A stretch of 8,800 nt of DNA, taken from an uncultured Pseudomonadales bacterium. Its GTDB lineage: Bacteria; Pseudomonadota; Gammaproteobacteria; Pseudomonadales; IMCC2047. The notes under the pieces are model-generated. The model saw only the letters and a program-made list of their open reading frames with translations. It searched no databases and was not told where the DNA came from. Position 1 is the first letter of the stretch. Each line of letters starts with the position of its first letter. Position numbers and translations under genes: made by a program. Positions 467 through 8,800 of this stretch are shown piece by piece. The DNA lies in assembly GCA_947258895.1 (NCBI GenBank), contig CAMYKE010000032.1:1-8800 (forward strand), read 5' to 3'.

Positions 467-1120
467 ATGTACCATTTCCACATCGCGGATGACCATCCGC
501 TTTTCAGGAATGCATTACTGGAAGTGATTTCAAGTGATATGCCGGATGTAGTGACGACCCAGTCATCCGACTTTTCATCGACAATTCATGAACTGGAAGC
601 CAATCCGGAAACGGACATACTACTCCTCGATTTACATATGCCCGGCAGCCAGGACCTGTTTGGGCTGATCAGCGTCCGCGAGAAATTTCCGTTAATCCCC
701 GTAATGGTGATTTCTGCCAGCGACGACATCGATACCATTAGCCGCGCCATCGGTCACGGCGCAGCCGCTTTCATTCCTAAATCCGCCTCGCCGGATCAAA
801 TTACCGAAGCCATTAATGAGGTGTTGGAAGGTGAGAGCTGGGTACCCGAAGAACTGCGCGGCCGTTTAAAGCCTATCGCTGCCGAAGAAAAGGATATGGC
901 GGCAAAAATTGCAACACTCACCCCCCATCAATACAAGGTATTGCAATATATCCGCGAAGGCTGGCTCAACAAACAGATTGCCTATGAGCTGGGCATTACC
1001 GAGGCCACCGTAAAAGCCCATATCACGGCGATTTTCAGAAAGCTCGGGGCCTCCAATCGCACCCAGGCGGTAGTCATGCTGAGTAAAATGTCACTGGAAG
1101 AGATAGCAAGCGGTTCCTAG
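467..1120 (+). CDS. crbR: NarL/LuxR-family response regulator, CrbR/ErdR-like
   Basis: This is a DNA-binding response regulator of 217 residues, a normal length for the NarL/FixJ type. Residues 1-118 are a receiver domain with the acidic pair D8-D9, the phospho-acceptor D55 in LLLDLHMPG, the switch residue S83 and the invariant K105. Residues 148-210 are a LuxR-type helix-turn-helix: LTPHQYKVL, then LGITEATVKAHITAIFRKLG. The start is fixed by AGGAGG at 457-462, 4 bp before the ATG. It converges with the adjacent hybrid kinase, leaving 21 bp between stop codons. CrbR-type regulators activate acetyl-CoA synthetase and acetate uptake genes, and the symporter operon nearby fits this. The family call is firm; the CrbR assignment rests on resemblance and on the CrbS-type neighbour. 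The gene ends in TAG. Confidence 0.88.
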   Translation: MYHFHIADDHPLFRNALLEVISSDMPDVVTTQSSDFSSTIHELEANPETDILLLDLHMPGSQDLFGLISVREKFPLIPVMVISASDDIDTISRAIGHGAAAFIPKSASPDQITEAINEVLEGESWVPEELRGRLKPIAAEEKDMAAKIATLTPHQYKVLQYIREGWLNKQIAYELGITEATVKAHITAIFRKLGASNRTQAVVMLSKMSLEEIASGS

Positions 1121-1141: not shown

Positions 1142-4100
1142 CTATATCCGTTTATTTACCTGCTGCAATAACGCCTTTAACTTACCCGGCTTAACCGGTT
1201 TTCTCAGCAGGTGGTAATTTTTTTCCTCCACCAGGATGGGTAAATCTTCATCCTGCGCCGCAGAAACAATGCATATGGCAAATCCGCTCCCCCAATGTCG
1301 CTGCATTTCCTCCGCCAGCTGAATACCCGTCGTCGCATCATCACCCAGTTGGTAATCCATGAGCAAAACACGGGGAGGACTGTTTTCCTGCAAATATTTT
1401 CTTGCCGTCAGCACTGAATTCAGGGTCACTATATGGCAATCCCATCGCCCCAGTAAACTGGCCAGGGCGGACAGGTTCTGCTCGTCATCATCAACGTAAA
1501 GCACTGAAAGGCCCGCGAGTTCCCCCGACGTCATAGGAGCCTGTTCGACCTGCGCAGCCGCTGCCGCAGTCGCCACCGGAAGCGAGACCGAAAAAAAGCT
1601 GCCCAGGTTAAGTGTGGAATGCATCCTGATTTCCAGGCCCAGCAGTTTGCTAAATCGCGAGGCTACTCCCAATCCGAGCCCAGCGCCCTCGGTATCCGTA
1701 GAAGCCCGGAAAAAATCTTCAAAGATCCGCCGCTGGTCTGCAGTGGATATACCTGGCCCCGAATCATATACACAGATCTCCAATCCCCAGCTGCGACGCC
1801 GGCAGCCAACCAGTATTTTTCCAGCATCCGTGTATTTCACCGCATTAGACATAAAATTTTGCACAATGCGACGCAAATAGCCCGGGTCCGTCTCGACGAA
1901 AAGTGAACATGGCACGTAATGCATTTCAACACCTTCAGCACACTGTACCGAAAACTGCTGGTAAAGCGGCTGCAGGAGGTCATCTACTGCAAATACCTTG
2001 GGGTGCGGTTTCAGGGTACCCGTATCCAGCTTGGCGATTTCAAACAATGACGAGATTATGGTTTCTGATGACTGGATTGCACTACGCAGATTACGGACAA
2101 CCTTCTTTTCTGCACTTTCCAGAACATCCGTCTCCATGAGCGTACTAACGTACAGATTAGCTGCATTCAGGGGTTGCAAAATATCGTGACTGGCAAGCGC
2201 CAGAAAGCGTGATTTACTTTTGTTTGCTTGGTCGGCTTCCATTTTTGCCTCGACCAGCTCGCTTTCAATTTTCTTTCTGCGCTCGATTTCCGTCCTCAGG
2301 TCAAAATTGATATTTTCAATGGTCTTGGTCCGTTCCTGAACCCGCTCCTCGAGATGTTCGTTTGCTTCCTCGAGCTGCTTCTGTGCGGAAATAAACTCGG
2401 TAATATCATCGTAGGTAGTCACATAACCACCGTTTGGCAACGGGGTTCCCTTGATTTCAATAACGCTACCCTGCCCACGGCTACGCACAATCCGATACGG
2501 TTTGGCAGCACGCAGATAGGTGATTCGCTTTTGAACGTGATCTTCGGTCAACCCCGGACCCATCATTCCACGTTCGGAGTTAAAGCGGACCAGATCCGCG
2601 ACGCTCGCCCCCACCGTCAACATGCCCTTCGGATAATTAAACATATCTTCGTAACGCTTGTTCCACGCCACCATTTCCATGCTTTCGTTCGCTACACTTA
2701 TGGCCGAAGAAATGTTTTCGAAGGAGGCAAACAAAATATCCTGGTTAAAGCGCAATGCCTTGGTGGTTTCCTCAAAGATATTCACCACATCCTCTACCCC
2801 GAAACCTTCACCTTCATGCAGGGTGGCTATCATGGAACGCGCGGAAGCGACCCCCACTACACCCGCGAGCGCCTGTTCTGCACGTTCCAGAACATCGGCG
2901 GAAACCAGTTCCTGAATGGCTTCATCCCCGACTTGCTGGAACACCTCGGAAGTCGCCCTGGGCCCGATAAACTGATGCAGCAGAGCCCTCAAATCATCTG
3001 CGAAGACTTGTAGCTGCTTGCCCTGGTACCCTGACATCTGCCGCTCACGGCGGCAAAAGGCAAGGCTTTGAATACGATCTGACAGGTGCGTTTTGTCCAG
3101 CAGGGAAAAGCCGACGTAAGCAGCGAGATTGCACGCAATACTGATTAGTACACCCCGGGTATAGCTATCACTGAATTCGAAATTAAACAGGTATTCGGGA
3201 CGCAACCAGCTTACATTTGCCAGGCCGCTCTCCAGTAGCTGCGGGTTCAGGACCCCTGCTTCGACGAGCAACGGCATCATCAGGGTGTAGAACCAGATAA
3301 AACCGCCCGCTACCAGCCCGGCATACACCCCCAGCGCATTACCTCGTCGCCACACCAGCCCGAGTAAAATAGCGGGCGCCAATTGCACAGCTAATGCAAA
3401 TGCAATTAGCCCGATACTGGTTAGGGCGGCATTCCCGGCCAGCGTGGCCTGGTAAACATACGCAAGAAATACGACCAATACGACCGTCGACCGACGAGCG
3501 AACATCAAGGCCGGTGAATAATCTCGGCTGCGGTTGCGCTCCGAATAACGCTTGATTAGTAGCGGCAGGATGACGTCATTACTCAGCATCTGGCTAAGCG
3601 TTACCGTGGCCACAATGATCATGGCGGTAGCCGCGGAAAAACCACCCAGGAAGGCCAACGTGGCGATCGTTGGCATATTCCTGGCCAGCGGTAACGCTAA
3701 TACATAACTATCGCCGGAAACTCCGGAACCATAAAAAATCGCGTTGCCTACCCAGGCGATGACCAACACAAAGCACATCACCAGCGCCAAATACCCGCTG
3801 AACGCCCACCGCGCTGTTTTCAGGTGCTGGTCTGAAATTCGCTCAACGAAGGTCACATGAAACATGCGTGGCAGGCAGAAAATAGCGCAGGCGGAAATAA
3901 CCGTCTCCACAACAAAACGTAAATTAAGCGTCGATTCCGCAAAGGGCTGGCCGGCATGCTCTAACAGCTGCTCGGAATCGATGTCCGACCACACCCAAAG
4001 GGCGAGCAGCGCAACAGATCCCAGAGCAATTAATTTAACCAGGGACTCAAAGGCAATCGCGCTCATTAAGCCGGCATGGTAACCCGATACGTCCAGCCGT

Positions 4101-4621
4101 TTGGTTCCAAACAGCAACGCAAATACCACCATGCTGGCTGCGACCAGGAAGGTAATATCATAGCGGGCAACACCCATATCCCCCATAGTCAATACCAGGC
4201 TGTCCGACACCGCTTTCAATTGCAGGGCAATGTAGGGGACCGTAGCCAGCAGCACGACGAGTGTGGTGGTAACAGCAACGCCCTGCCGCTTGCCATACCG
4301 CGATGAGAGGAAATCGGCAATGCTATGAACATTTTCCTGCTTGCAAATCTGCCCCATGCGCTCCAGCAGGGGAAAACCAAAAGTAAACAACAATATGGGG
4401 CCGAGTAATATCGGCAAGTACGACCAGCCGGATTGCGAGGCGGTGCCAACCAGCCCGTAAAACGTCCAGGAAGTACAGTAAACGCCCAGTGCCAGGGCGT
4501 AGACAATGGGATGCTGCGGCCAGCTGCCCTCAACAAACTGACGCTTGTCGCCCCTGCGTGCTGTCCAGAACAGCAACCCTATATAGGCTAGCACCGCAAT
4601 GATGACTACAGCTGGAGACAT
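1142..4621 (-). CDS. crbS: Sodium:solute symporter-fused hybrid sensor histidine kinase, CrbS-like
   Basis: This 1159-residue inner-membrane sensor kinase likely senses or co-transports a small carboxylate and phosphorylates the neighbouring regulator. Residues 1 to about 510 are a multi-pass SLC5/SSS transporter-like domain. A STAC linker follows at about 535-610, then a PAS domain at about 630-745 and a coiled coil at about 745-805. HisKA has H812 in LALASHDILQPLNA. The HATPase has N926 in NAVKYT, D953 in DSGPGIS, and GAGLGLG near 976-982. A C-terminal receiver has D1044-D1046, phospho-acceptor D1089 and K1141. All catalytic residues are present. The length and domain order match CrbS/MxtR kinases of the acetate switch. 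The ATG at 4621 gives the expected first membrane helix; its ribosome-binding site is weak (GAAGCGAG). The miniature element ends 42 bp upstream. No Hpt protein is seen. The gene ends in TAG. Confidence 0.92.
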   Translation of the reverse strand: MSPAVVIIAVLAYIGLLFWTARRGDKRQFVEGSWPQHPIVYALALGVYCTSWTFYGLVGTASQSGWSYLPILLGPILLFTFGFPLLERMGQICKQENVHSIADFLSSRYGKRQGVAVTTTLVVLLATVPYIALQLKAVSDSLVLTMGDMGVARYDITFLVAASMVVFALLFGTKRLDVSGYHAGLMSAIAFESLVKLIALGSVALLALWVWSDIDSEQLLEHAGQPFAESTLNLRFVVETVISACAIFCLPRMFHVTFVERISDQHLKTARWAFSGYLALVMCFVLVIAWVGNAIFYGSGVSGDSYVLALPLARNMPTIATLAFLGGFSAATAMIIVATVTLSQMLSNDVILPLLIKRYSERNRSRDYSPALMFARRSTVVLVVFLAYVYQATLAGNAALTSIGLIAFALAVQLAPAILLGLVWRRGNALGVYAGLVAGGFIWFYTLMMPLLVEAGVLNPQLLESGLANVSWLRPEYLFNFEFSDSYTRGVLISIACNLAAYVGFSLLDKTHLSDRIQSLAFCRRERQMSGYQGKQLQVFADDLRALLHQFIGPRATSEVFQQVGDEAIQELVSADVLERAEQALAGVVGVASARSMIATLHEGEGFGVEDVVNIFEETTKALRFNQDILFASFENISSAISVANESMEMVAWNKRYEDMFNYPKGMLTVGASVADLVRFNSERGMMGPGLTEDHVQKRITYLRAAKPYRIVRSRGQGSVIEIKGTPLPNGGYVTTYDDITEFISAQKQLEEANEHLEERVQERTKTIENINFDLRTEIERRKKIESELVEAKMEADQANKSKSRFLALASHDILQPLNAANLYVSTLMETDVLESAEKKVVRNLRSAIQSSETIISSLFEIAKLDTGTLKPHPKVFAVDDLLQPLYQQFSVQCAEGVEMHYVPCSLFVETDPGYLRRIVQNFMSNAVKYTDAGKILVGCRRRSWGLEICVYDSGPGISTADQRRIFEDFFRASTDTEGAGLGLGVASRFSKLLGLEIRMHSTLNLGSFFSVSLPVATAAAAAQVEQAPMTSGELAGLSVLYVDDDEQNLSALASLLGRWDCHIVTLNSVLTARKYLQENSPPRVLLMDYQLGDDATTGIQLAEEMQRHWGSGFAICIVSAAQDEDLPILVEEKNYHLLRKPVKPGKLKALLQQVNKRI

Positions 4622-4663
4622 AGTTCTCGCTTCTGTTACGAAACCCGGATGTTCTGACTTTGC

Positions 4664-4832
4664 AGGGCACCTCTGAATAGTAACTTAATCCCTCTGCGAG
4701 ATCTGGAGGTTTTAGTTGCAAGGCGGGAGTTGCAGCCAATGCTTATTGCATTGGTAAAACTTCCAACACCGCAGATGAAGCCTGCAAGTCTCTGTAAGCC
4801 AGAGGCATCAAGGTATTATTCAGAGGTGCCCT
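4664..4832 (-). mobile_element. Miniature inverted-repeat element (MITE-like), copy 2
   Basis: This 169-bp element is bounded by perfect 16-bp terminal inverted repeats: agggcacctctgaata at 4664-4679 and its exact complement at 4817-4832. It contains a central hairpin, CCAATGC/GCATTGG (4736-4742 with 4748-4754, 5-base loop). Its reverse complement aligns with 217-430. It has no room for a transposase. Flanks show no clean target duplication; ACTTTGC on the left and AACTTGC on the right are similar but not identical. It lies between the kinase start and the DUF4212 operon, so it separates their divergent promoters. Probably a non-autonomous derivative of an insertion sequence; I cannot assign the parent. 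Confidence 0.75.
4677..4682 (-). promoter_or_regulatory. Possible -10 box for the kinase gene within the element end
   Basis: On the minus strand this reads TACTAT, matching four of six bases of the sigma-70 -10 consensus, 55 bp before the kinase ATG. It aligns with TATTAA at 412-417 in copy 1. No convincing -35 box is seen, so this is tentative. Confidence 0.18.
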
Positions 4833-4865
4833 AACTTGCCAACGAGTATAACGGATTCGACATTA

Positions 4866-4889
4866 GTCGTATTTACGACCAAAGTCGTA
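4866..4889. promoter_or_regulatory. Triple GTCGTA half-site cluster, candidate operator of the symporter operon
   Basis: GTCGTA occurs at 4866-4871, its complement TACGAC at 4874-4879, and GTCGTA again at 4884-4889. The first two form an inverted repeat with a 2-bp spacer; the last two form one with a 4-bp spacer; the outer two are direct repeats 18 bp apart. The cluster lies about 75-95 bp before the DUF4212 ATG. A weak -10-like TAGATT (4913-4918) lies downstream with no good -35, as expected for an activator-dependent promoter. NarL/LuxR-type regulators bind short inverted half-sites, so the adjacent CrbR-like protein is the natural candidate. Binding itself is inference. Confidence 0.5.
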
Positions 4890-4962
4890 ACGCCAGCACC
4901 TGATTATGTTGATAGATTGCAATTGCCCAATCTGCAACGCGCATACAAATGAGGAACGAGGT

Positions 4963-5232
4963 ATGAACACAGAAGAAGAGATAGTTAACAAGGCGGCGTA
5001 CTGGAAAGCAAATGTGCGATTGATGATCACATTGCTTGTTATCTGGTTCGTCATTTCATTCGGTTTTGGCATTTTGCTGGTGGAACCGCTCAACAGTATC
5101 CAGCTCGGCGGCTATAAGCTGGGATTCTGGTTTGCGCAACAAGGCTCCATGTACGGATTCGTTGCGCTGATCTTTTTCTACGCTAAACGCATGACCGCAT
5201 TAGATCGCCAATTTGGCTTCCACGAAGACTGA
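4963..5232 (+). CDS. DUF4212 small membrane protein, putative symporter small subunit
   Basis: This 89-residue protein has two predicted membrane helices: about residues 16-40 (LMITLLVIWFVISFGFGILL) and 53-73 (FWFAQQGSMYGFVALIFFY). A short charged tail follows. FGFGILLVEPLN and GFWFAQQGS are typical of DUF4212 (TIGR03647), a family almost always encoded directly before a VC_2705-type sodium:solute symporter and thought to be its small subunit; the analogous E. coli pair is yjcH-actP. I chose the ATG at 4963 over the one at 4906 because GAGG sits 8 bp before it, the resulting length fits the family, and the 19 extra residues do not resemble it. The symporter starts 14 bp after the stop, so the two are very likely cotranscribed. 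The GTCGTA cluster lies upstream. Confidence 0.9.
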   Translation: MNTEEEIVNKAAYWKANVRLMITLLVIWFVISFGFGILLVEPLNSIQLGGYKLGFWFAQQGSMYGFVALIFFYAKRMTALDRQFGFHED

Positions 5233-5246
5233 GCAGGGGAATTATT

Positions 5247-6977
5247 ATGGAACTGCAAACTTTAACCTACATTGTAGTTGGCATTACCTTTGCCATCTAC
5301 ATCGGCATTGCCATCTGGGCGCGTGCCGGATCAACCAGCGAGTTCTATGTCGCGGGCGGGGGTATTCACCCTGTCGCAAATGGCATGGCAACTGGTGCTG
5401 ACTGGATGTCAGCCGCATCCTTTATATCCATGGCAGGATTGATCGCTTTCTATGGATATGGAGGGTCCGTATTCCTGATGGGATGGACCGGCGGATATGT
5501 GCTGCTGGCCATGCTGCTGGCGCCCTACTTGCGTAAACATGGCAAGTTCACCGTACCTGAGTTTATTGGCGACCGTTTTTACTCCAAGACAGCCCGCATC
5601 GTTGCGGTAGTGTGTCTGATTGTCGCGTCAGTAACCTATGTTATTGGCCAGATGAAAGGTATTGGCGTCGCCTTCTCCCGCTTCCTGGAAGTTTCTTACG
5701 GCACGGGGCTGCTGATCGGTATGTGTATCGTGTTTTTTTACGCGGTAACCGGTGGTATGAAAGGCATTACCTATACCCAGATCGCCCAATACGTCGTGTT
5801 GATTTTCGCCTACACGATTCCCGCTATCTTCATCTCATTGAACTTGACTGGCAACCCTATCCCACAACTGGGGCTGGGCAGCACCATGGTGGGGACGGAT
5901 ACCTACCTGCTTGATCGGCTGGACCAGGTGGTAACAGAGCTCGGCTTTGCGGAATATACCACCCAGGCACGACTGAGTTCGCTCAATATGTTTGTCTATA
6001 CCATGTCGTTGATGATTGGTACTGCGGGTCTGCCCCACGTCATCATCCGCTTCTTCACCGTACCCAAGGTGAAAGATGCACGCTCATCTGCTGGTTGGGC
6101 GCTGGTATTCATCACCATTCTTTACACTACGGCTCCTGCAGTTGCAGCGATGGCGCGTCTGAATCTGATGACGACTATCGAGCCTGCCGCTGGACAAAAC
6201 CTGGTTTATGAGGAACGTCCACAGTGGTTCAAGAACTGGGAAAAAACCGGTCTGCTGAAGTTTGAAGATAAAAACGGCGACGGCAAAATACAGTACACAC
6301 CTGACGCTACTACCAATGAAATGGTTACGGTTGACCGCGACATCATGGTGCTGGCTAACCCGGAAATTGCCAAGCTGCCCAACTGGGTAATTGCACTGGT
6401 CGCCGCCGGCGGTCTGGCTGCCGCGTTATCTACGGCTGCCGGTCTGTTGTTGGCAATTGCCTCTGCGGTGTCGCATGATCTGCTGAAAGGTGTCATAAAA
6501 CCGAATATCAACGAGAAACAGGAGTTGATGGCGAGCCGTGTCGCGATGGCATTCGCTATCGCCGGTGCAGGTTACCTGGGCTTCAACCCTCCGGATTTTG
6601 CCGCAGGAACCGTAGCCCTGGCCTTCGGTCTCGCTGGTTCCTCCATCTTCCCGGCATTGATGATGGGTATCTTCAGCAAACGCATCAACAAGGAAGGCGC
6701 GATTGCGGGCATGATCGCCGGCCTGACGGTAACCCTGTTGTATGTGTTCCAGCACAAAGGCATCATGTTTATTCCAGGCACTTCATTCCTGGGTGGCATG
6801 CCGAGCAACTGGTTCTTTGGTATTGAGCCTAATGCCTTCGGCGCCATTGGAGCAGTTGTGAACTTTTCGGTAGCAGCTGTTGTTTCCCGGGTAACAGCAA
6901 AGCCACCGGAAGAAATCCAGCACATGGTCGAGAATTTTCGTATCCCGGCTGGCGCAGGAGGCGCTCAGGCACACTAA
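5247..6977 (+). CDS. Sodium:solute symporter, VC_2705 subfamily (acetate/carboxylate permease-like)
   Basis: This 576-residue SSS-family (SLC5) transporter of the inner membrane has about 13 hydrophobic segments. Family signatures include ATGADWMSAASFISMAG near residues 48-64, GLPHVIIRFFTVP at 261-273, and ALSTAAGLLLAIASAVSHDL at about 393-412. S395-T396 line up with the sodium-binding Ser-Thr of PutP. A hydrophilic loop at about 310-375 includes DKNGDG (341-346), which resembles a calcium-binding loop but lacks the acidic residue at position 12. The full length and the preceding DUF4212 gene place it in the TIGR03648 group. Relatives such as ActP carry acetate and other short carboxylates; the exact substrate cannot be read from sequence. 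AGGGGA at 5235-5240 is 6 bp before the ATG. The CrbS/CrbR-like pair next door supports acetate-type uptake. Confidence 0.93.
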   Translation: MELQTLTYIVVGITFAIYIGIAIWARAGSTSEFYVAGGGIHPVANGMATGADWMSAASFISMAGLIAFYGYGGSVFLMGWTGGYVLLAMLLAPYLRKHGKFTVPEFIGDRFYSKTARIVAVVCLIVASVTYVIGQMKGIGVAFSRFLEVSYGTGLLIGMCIVFFYAVTGGMKGITYTQIAQYVVLIFAYTIPAIFISLNLTGNPIPQLGLGSTMVGTDTYLLDRLDQVVTELGFAEYTTQARLSSLNMFVYTMSLMIGTAGLPHVIIRFFTVPKVKDARSSAGWALVFITILYTTAPAVAAMARLNLMTTIEPAAGQNLVYEERPQWFKNWEKTGLLKFEDKNGDGKIQYTPDATTNEMVTVDRDIMVLANPEIAKLPNWVIALVAAGGLAAALSTAAGLLLAIASAVSHDLLKGVIKPNINEKQELMASRVAMAFAIAGAGYLGFNPPDFAAGTVALAFGLAGSSIFPALMMGIFSKRINKEGAIAGMIAGLTVTLLYVFQHKGIMFIPGTSFLGGMPSNWFFGIEPNAFGAIGAVVNFSVAAVVSRVTAKPPEEIQHMVENFRIPAGAGGAQAH

Positions 6978-6996: not shown

Positions 6997-7026
6997 AGGT
7001 CAGGCCCCTTTTAAGGGGTCTGACCT
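6997..7026 (+). terminator. Strong hairpin after the symporter gene, possible terminator or REP-like element
   Basis: AGGTCAG-G-CCCC (6997-7008) pairs with GGGG-T-CTGACCT (7015-7026) around TTTTAA. This is a 12-bp stem with one G-U pair. It lies 20 bp past the symporter stop and 80 bp before the next gene. Only three T follow the stem, so it is not a classical intrinsic terminator. It could attenuate transcription into the downstream genes or protect the symporter mRNA 3' end. Short palindromes with a GGGGTCTGACC core also occur as dispersed REP-type repeats, so a repetitive origin is possible; only one copy is in this window. Confidence 0.5.
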
Positions 7027-7105: not shown

Positions 7106-7618
7106 ATGTTTAAGAATAAACATATTATCGTTGCCATGATCGTCGCTCCCATTCTTGCGTTGCTGAGCTATTTTGCGACCGACCATGTGGTCAGCGAAAA
7201 GCCTCACGCGGCAATTGCTGGACAAAGCTATAAACTGGTCGCGAAATCAAACTGTCGGTATGAGAGTGGCCTCTGCACGTTAGAAAACGCCGAACTGAAT
7301 ATAACCTTGCGAGCCGAATTCCCGTCAGCCGACCAGGTCGTATTGTTGCTGACCTCAAATAATCCGCTCAAAGGCGCAAAAATAGCCCTGGCAAAGCCGG
7401 GTGAAAACAGCACCCCCGTCGAAATGAGTGCAATCGAGGCCGACACCACGCGCTGGAAAGCACAGCTCTACAGCCCATCAATCGAAGCTTCCTCGATCAT
7501 GCTGGTAGTGGCTGCTGGTGAATCCAGCTACTACGCGGAAACAGGCATTGCTTTCGCCAAATATGAAACGAATTTCTCTCGTGATGGATGGGCGAATAAT
7601 TCGCGTAACTCAAAATAA
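7106..7618 (+). CDS. Unrecognised membrane-anchored periplasmic protein
   Basis: This 170-residue protein matches no named family I can recall with confidence. Residues 6-24 (HIIVAMIVAPILALLSYFA) form one N-terminal membrane helix with positive residues before it, so the remainder probably lies in the periplasm. The body, about 36-160, alternates short hydrophobic and polar stretches, suggesting a beta-sandwich. It has just two cysteines, C50 and C57 (CRYESGLC), well placed for a disulfide. AGGAGG at 7092-7097 gives an 8-bp spacing and a secure start. It sits 128 bp after the symporter, beyond the hairpin, and 12 bp before the DUF294 gene, suggesting transcription with the latter. A role with the transporter or signalling is context inference only. 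FixH-like or copper-chaperone-like folds are alternatives, but I see no metal-binding motif. Confidence 0.85.
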   Translation: MFKNKHIIVAMIVAPILALLSYFATDHVVSEKPHAAIAGQSYKLVAKSNCRYESGLCTLENAELNITLRAEFPSADQVVLLLTSNNPLKGAKIALAKPGENSTPVEMSAIEADTTRWKAQLYSPSIEASSIMLVVAAGESSYYAETGIAFAKYETNFSRDGWANNSRNSK

Positions 7619-7630
7619 CGGTATCGCAGT

Positions 7631-8800
7631 ATGGTTGCTGAAACGGACGATATAAAGAGCTTTCTCTCCGACTACCCTCCCTTCGATGCGCTGGAACCGG
7701 AACAACTCGACCTGGCCGCTCGCAACCTGAAAATCGCCTTTAGAAAATCCGGCGAAATCATCGATTTTAACAGAATCGACCTGTGCCTTATCATTATCCG
7801 TACCGGGAGCATCGAGATACGACTGGCGGATGGCACCCTGGCCGATCGCTTAAGCACCGGCGGTTTGGTCGGCTATATGTCACTGCTCACCGACCAGGTT
7901 TCGGACCGCACCATTAGAGTGCTCGAAGACAGTCTACTGTATGAATTGAACGAGGCGACTTTCCATACACTTCGACACAAGTGCCGTACGTTTGAGTTGT
8001 TCTTTACGCGGGAACAGAACCGTAAATTGCGCGAGCTTATCCGGCCCCAGGATCAAAACCTGCAGCTCAATCTGCCCATCAGCGAACTCATGACGAAAAA
8101 CCCCGTGTGTGCTGATTCACGGATGACTATTAGAGAAGCCGCTCAACTCATGACTGAACGGCGTGTTTCTTCCCTGCTGATTAAAGAAAACGATAAGCTG
8201 GTAGGTATTATGACCGACCGGGATCTGCGCTCACGCGTCCTGGCGAAAGGGATTGAATCGAGCGAATGCGTGTCTACCATCATGACTGCCAATCCAGCCT
8301 CTATCGATTCAACTCGCACGGTTCACGATGCACAGCTGCAGATGATGTCCGCCAATATTCACCACCTGCCGGTGGTAGGTCACGGCACAAAAGCCGTCGG
8401 CATTGTTGCTCTGAATGACTTTATCCGCGCCAACAACAGCGAACCCGTATTCCTGATTCAAGCCATTGGTCGCGCCAAACAAAGAGAAGACATCTATCGC
8501 GTCGCGCGAGACTTGCCGGAACTTACGAGAAAGTTGATCAAAGCCGACGTCCGGGCCGACGAAGTAGGCCGCATTATTACCTCGGTTACCGACAGTATGA
8601 CCAAGAGGCTGCTGGGGCTGGGAGCGGATAAATTTGGTCCAGCGCCCTGTAGCTTCGCCTGGCTTGCATTTGGCTCGCAGGGACGACAAGAACAAATGTT
8701 GGGGTCCGACTAGGACAATGCCATGCTGATCAGCGATGAGATGAAGCCGGAAGATGATAGCTATTTCTTCAATCTGGCAAAATTCGTAAATGACGGCCTC
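7631..8800 (+). pseudogene. cNMP-binding/CBS/DUF294 nucleotidyltransferase-like gene with in-frame TAG; runs off the window
   Basis: Residues 1 to about 130 form a cNMP-binding-like fold. It is degenerate, with GGLVGYMSLL where active cyclic-nucleotide pockets have a Gly-Glu. Residues about 148-268 are two CBS repeats ending VGIMTDRDLR and VGIVALNDFIR. From about 275 the GlnD-like DUF294 nucleotidyltransferase begins, with its signature at 345-360: LAFGSQGRQEQMLGSD. The family continues DQDNA, but here codon 361 is TAG (8711-8713) and the frame then reads DNAMLISDEM, open for 29 codons to the edge. Relatives have about 600-640 residues. As read, the product would be 360 residues without a complete catalytic site. 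A real nonsense mutation or a sequencing error are both possible; an alternative annotation is a truncated CDS at 7631-8713. The start follows the previous gene by 12 bp with no clear ribosome-binding site, suggesting translational coupling. The family's function is poorly known. Confidence 0.8.
8711..8713 (+). other. In-frame amber codon replacing the motif glutamine
   Basis: TAG stands between GGGTCCGAC and GACAATGCC, which read GSD and DNA. The conserved family motif is (T/S)DQDNA, so a CAG to TAG single-base change explains it. The response regulator (1118-1120) and the kinase (1142-1144 on the minus strand) both end naturally at TAG, so TAG is an ordinary stop in this genome. Confidence 0.85.

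Follow-up and report, generated by a model that had tools for sequence, protein, structure and literature searches.

The window, by which is meant the whole 8,800-nt stretch of DNA that was analysed, carries genes for a LuxR-type response regulator, a hybrid sensor histidine kinase, the small and large subunits of a sodium/solute symporter, a 170-aa protein and a DUF294 protein whose reading frame is interrupted by a TAG codon (Table 1).

Table 1. Genes and features of the interrupted DUF294 locus
Feature	Coordinates	Strand	Remarks
LuxR-type response regulator	467-1120	+	ErdR is the top NCBIfam match, below cut-off; natural end at a TAG
Hybrid sensor histidine kinase (PAS, HisKA, HATPase, REC)	1142-4621	-	Perhaps CrbS-like; TAG just past REC
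DUF4212/sodium-substrate symporter small subunit	4906-5232	+	Pfam, NCBIfam
VC_2705 family sodium/solute symporter, large subunit	5247-6977	+	Upstream of the DUF294 gene, same direction
170-aa protein	7106-7618	+	Between symporter and DUF294 gene
Interrupted DUF294 gene	7631-8713	+	ATG at 7631, 360 codons and TAG
In-frame TAG, codon 361 of the DUF294 gene	8711-8713	+	Falls between the D-x-D aspartates
Open tail 3' of the TAG, same frame	8714-8800	+	29 codons, family-like, runs off the window

The regulator scored 196.9 bits against the ErdR model, for which the cut-off is 390, and the kinase was below the cut-offs of the NahK/ErcS-type models (best 342.2 against 400). CrbS is described with a symporter domain in the portion of the source available (PMC5715377), whereas Pfam at E 0.01 found no such domain in the kinase, including its N-terminal half, and the CrbS/CrbR reading of these two genes is therefore a tentative one. 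The symporter subunits were matched by TIGR03647 and TIGR03648. Among the matches listed, relatives of the large subunit were up to 90% identical, and the named symporter relatives came from Oleiphilus, Bermanella, Teredinibacter and other gammaproteobacteria. Neither Pfam nor NCBIfam gave a match for the 170-aa protein at E 0.01.

Several other elements were observed between the genes. Just upstream of the DUF4212/symporter genes are two adjacent palindromic candidate sites (4855-4890) that resemble the CrbR-dependent motif as given in the available part of its description (PMC5715377), one of them fitting a coarse pattern with 0 mismatches and the other with 1, and the same pattern also occurs at 121 and at 8772 with 3 mismatches each. 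The DUF4212 domain begins at residue 30 of the listed ORF, and an internal ATG (4963) is a likelier start of the small subunit, one that would leave space for a promoter downstream of the palindromic sites. Two inverted copies of a short element (256-432 and 4662-4832), complementary over 86 nt at 90% and over 50 nt at 80%, flank the regulator and kinase genes and are MITE-like in appearance, the second copy ending on either side in 33-nt terminal inverted repeats (4664-4696 and 4800-4832, 88%). A near-palindrome that is hairpin-like by eye is located between the symporter and the gene for the 170-aa protein (6998-7025). The window was scanned for tRNA genes and none was found, and Rfam gave no match at gathering scores.

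The interrupted DUF294 gene

The frame that begins at the ATG reads ...FGSQGRQEQMLGSD, then TAG (8711-8713), then DNAMLISDEM..., and is open to 8800, in agreement with the position of the stop and the open frame given in a preliminary description made from the letters alone. The identity proposed there for the gene was also borne out by Pfam, which placed a cNMP_binding domain at residues 52-115, CBS in two stretches, and a DUF294 domain at residues 294-360 that is cut at profile position 68 of 138. The match to PF03445 covers profile positions 2-68 of 138 only and passed the gathering score with 63.8 bits against 21. The product comprises cNMP-binding and CBS regions combined with the first half of a DUF294 nucleotidyltransferase domain. 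In the nucleotidyltransferase superfamily the D-x-D aspartates bind the catalytic metals, and in the translated product this pair is incomplete, as D360 is present and D362 comes after the TAG, where it is still encoded by the genomic frame. A search of solved structures with a full-length relative gave 37 matches, all in the CBS region and none in the DUF294 part.

The tail beyond the TAG was compared with 184 rows of relatives, to which its mean identity was 0.436, while the other two forward frames of the same bases gave 0.038 and 0.019 and shuffled tails (n = 500) gave a mean of 0.077 (sd 0.032, maximum 0.198). The preliminary description had held that the downstream frame still looks coding, and the identity of 0.436 against 0.077 for shuffled tails agrees with it. 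The codon-usage score of the tail was 0.376, within an upstream-frame range of -0.108 to 0.448, and one reverse frame of the tail also scored 0.261. In the columns conserved in at least 90% of rows, the window keeps 57 of 57 before the TAG and 7 of 8 after it, so that the lesion is either young or not real. The rest of the gene is intact as far as 8800. An intact tail together with conserved columns indicates that selection acted on the whole gene up to the time when the TAG arose, or that the TAG is absent from the organism.

Codon 361 in relatives

The residue encoded at codon 361 was Gln in all of the 184 aligned rows, made up of 119 proteins and 65 loci, as expected from the earlier claim that the TAG had replaced a Gln codon. 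At the 65 loci the codon was CAA in 34 and CAG in 31, a count that leaves out 7 of 72 loci without a usable ORF and includes some genomes twice. A stop or gap at this codon was found in none of the 184 rows. When the read-through frame was aligned with 35 relatives, residues D360, Q361, D362 and N363 were invariant, Gln361 of the window's own row being imposed by the read-through.

The DUF294 gene was detected in 142 of 398 genomes of one phylum (E 1e-30) and in 207 of 394 genomes of an order with close matches (E 1e-40), and no internal stop was present among the 150 matches listed from the phylum search or the 150 listed from the order search, both lists having been counted by eye. In one family the gene was present in 8 of 9 genomes at E 1e-70, and all 8 were without stops. 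Since none of these listed relatives (150, 150 and 8 rows) has an internal stop, the lesion looks private, and among the matches listed the TAG is not common to any relative examined.

The search for protein homologues admitted lengths of 198-630 aa, longer proteins being excluded, and the 120 best of 1,019, the window's own included, were considered. The other 119 listed were all at least 481 aa and none had the 360-residue form. No homologue above 50% identity besides the window's own protein was present among the 120 listed of 1,019, and the protein is the sole member of its cluster; a second sequence of this lineage, which would have backed a real allele, was thus not found. In a scan of genome contigs with the DUF294 gene 9 loci were obtained, all distant, of which the best across the full query was 36% identical, and among plasmid records 282 had a match and none reached 60% identity.

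Origin of the in-frame stop

An ordinary cause is the most likely one for the TAG, which would be either a private and young nonsense change or, if artefactual, a base error, and a new way of reading the code is not a likely explanation. Of the explanations offered in the preliminary description, a recent nonsense mutation and a sequencing error are those that the data support. We favour, at a probability of about 0.52, a nonsense change that is real, recent and unprogrammed and belongs to one strain or lineage. The frame in its full length would have been under purifying selection until very recently and translation would now end at residue 360, leaving the cNMP and CBS regions, half of the nucleotidyltransferase domain and only the first motif aspartate. 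With one aspartate and no C-terminal domain such a product is expected to lack catalysis. The gene neighbours an acetate-type symporter and would probably be under CrbS/CrbR control, in a setting where its loss may be tolerated. The TAG itself, the invariant Gln, the frame intact on both sides up to 8800 and the lack of this stop in the relatives examined are observed; that the TAG is real DNA, that the product is inactive, that the CrbS/CrbR link holds and that the loss is tolerated is inferred.

If an error of sequencing or assembly had arisen at a thinly covered contig end, or a minor variant had entered the consensus there, the gene of the organism would be intact, and this we hold to be a substantial possibility at somewhat under even odds; the weights given to the real allele and to the error or minor variant are matters of judgement and were not computed. 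Contig ends are often thinly covered, and 87 bases separate the TAG from the end of the window, possibly also that of the contig, so that a base error is a serious competing explanation. In the protein database the contig of the window's proteins has a length of 8800, which fits a window that is the whole contig, although this figure may just mirror the window's length. An isolated base error near a sequence end would give an identical picture, the remainder of the visible frame looking like a working gene and the reference genomes having no stop in the DUF294 gene among the matches listed. Against an error, no direct sign of one was seen and the final 87 bases, read in frame, match the family.

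The position of the stop within the catalytic motif was noticed after the fact, and its coincidence with the motif is weaker than it appears. Besides the site itself, 19 codons of the frame are one transition away from a stop, and four of them lie in the motif (residues 347-363), a segment of 17 residues rich in Gln and Arg, so that it is not unusual for a nonsense change to fall there. When all one-base routes to a stop are considered, 8 of 94 codon sites are in the motif. The TAG is located in the sequence CTAGG, which is what deamination of a Dcm-type CCAGG would leave. Dcm sites are a mutation hotspot, and such a methylation hotspot is one possible origin of the TAG, to which a search of the literature contributed nothing further. 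Sites of the CCWGG type are neither depleted nor enriched in the window (CCAGG 21 against 21.6 expected, CCTGG 17 against 18.3 expected). The tetranucleotide CTAG is rare in the window, with 5 found against 12 expected, and the TAG stops at 1118-1120 and 8711-8713 each lie within one of the five.

That the 360-residue protein is itself selected, as a stand-alone cNMP/CBS sensor without catalysis, is improbable. The TAG does come after the cNMP and CBS domains; it falls inside the DUF294 domain, however, and not at a domain border, and the tail is undecayed, whereas an old truncation of some use would be expected to have let it decay. Out of 1,019 homologues, the 119 listed besides the window's own, at least 481 aa each in a search that admitted shorter proteins, likewise speak against such a sensor, and the persistence of the sensory half that had been suggested earlier is possible and without support.

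Amber suppression or recoding, in which translation would insert an amino acid at the TAG and yield the complete enzyme, is less probable again, although the tail is intact and conserved and the reading of TAG as Gln is known, according to the accessible part of one source (PMC8629427), from some phages and eukaryotes. The regulator gene and the hybrid histidine kinase gene both end in TAG, so that a code-15-type reassignment of TAG is not seen within the window, and the natural TAG ends on two other genes had already been raised against a genome-wide reassignment in the preliminary description, an argument that the gene ends uphold. The REC domain of the kinase (residues 1040-1152 of 1159) is complete except for one profile position, and in one family 8 of 9 genomes have regulators that match that of the window to residue 209-212 of 217, their open frames being 218-224 aa. 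The use of Gln codons in six genes (CAG 62, CAA 29) was rejected as an argument on TAG, the ORFs having been cut at TAG by construction.

A pyrrolysine synthetase was over the cut-off in none of the 197 genomes sampled from an order with close matches, 188 of which had weaker matches below it, and of the 14 controls for this search 13 gave a signal and one was over the cut-off. We take the matches below the cut-off, in the genomes and in most of the controls, for those of other synthetases. The lack of a tRNA gene in the 8,800-nt window also counts against recoding. With neither a stop nor a gap at codon 361 in any relative row, there is no conserved recoding signal; programmed readthrough would have the stop conserved at the same codon in relatives, where Gln was found in 184 of 184 rows. 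TAG is unlikely to be a sense codon in this organism, and the amber suppression proposed earlier finds no support in the window or in the relatives examined. Least probable of all is a lineage-specific amber suppressor that would allow low-level production of the full DUF294 enzyme through the TAG, in which case catalysis, and not the sensory half, would depend on readthrough.

Comparison with known systems

The stop-to-Gln recoding of genetic code 15 in crAss-like phages and of eukaryotic codes resembles the present case in having TAG at a conserved Gln, and differs from it in that a single site is affected here, TAG serves as a stop in two neighbouring genes and the relatives have no sign of recoding. 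With the DUF294/GlnD-like nucleotidyltransferases (PF03445 with PF10335) the window frame shares the GS...R...D-x-D pattern and the CBS and cNMP partners; unlike those enzymes, its product stops between the two aspartates, and the C-terminal half, with any DUF294_C domain (PF10335), would fall beyond 8800.

A protein with cAMP-binding, CBS and nucleotidyltransferase domains, Pflu5625 of P. fluorescens SBW25, belongs to the CrbS/R regulon according to the available text of its description (PMC5715377), and is likened to the window gene by annotation only, having the same kinds of domain. The kinase and regulator of that CrbS/R acetate system seem to have counterparts in the window, while the same text, as far as available, reports no interruption of Pflu5625, unlike the window gene. 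A search of the literature for a link of DUF294 with acetate and a symporter found none. Deletion of a Pseudomonas gene annotated with the same domains had a negligible effect on growth on acetate, as stated in the portion available (PMC5715377), and the authors consider there that laboratory conditions may hide a role of Pflu5625 that more natural ones may show. If the TAG is real, loss of the catalytic half would probably be tolerated under many conditions.

As it stands the finding has little significance, a gene intact but for one in-frame stop being a common kind of lesion or error. The case is of use as a caution, in that a stop exactly on a catalytic residue looks meaningful, yet the motif is prone to stops that arise by one transition.
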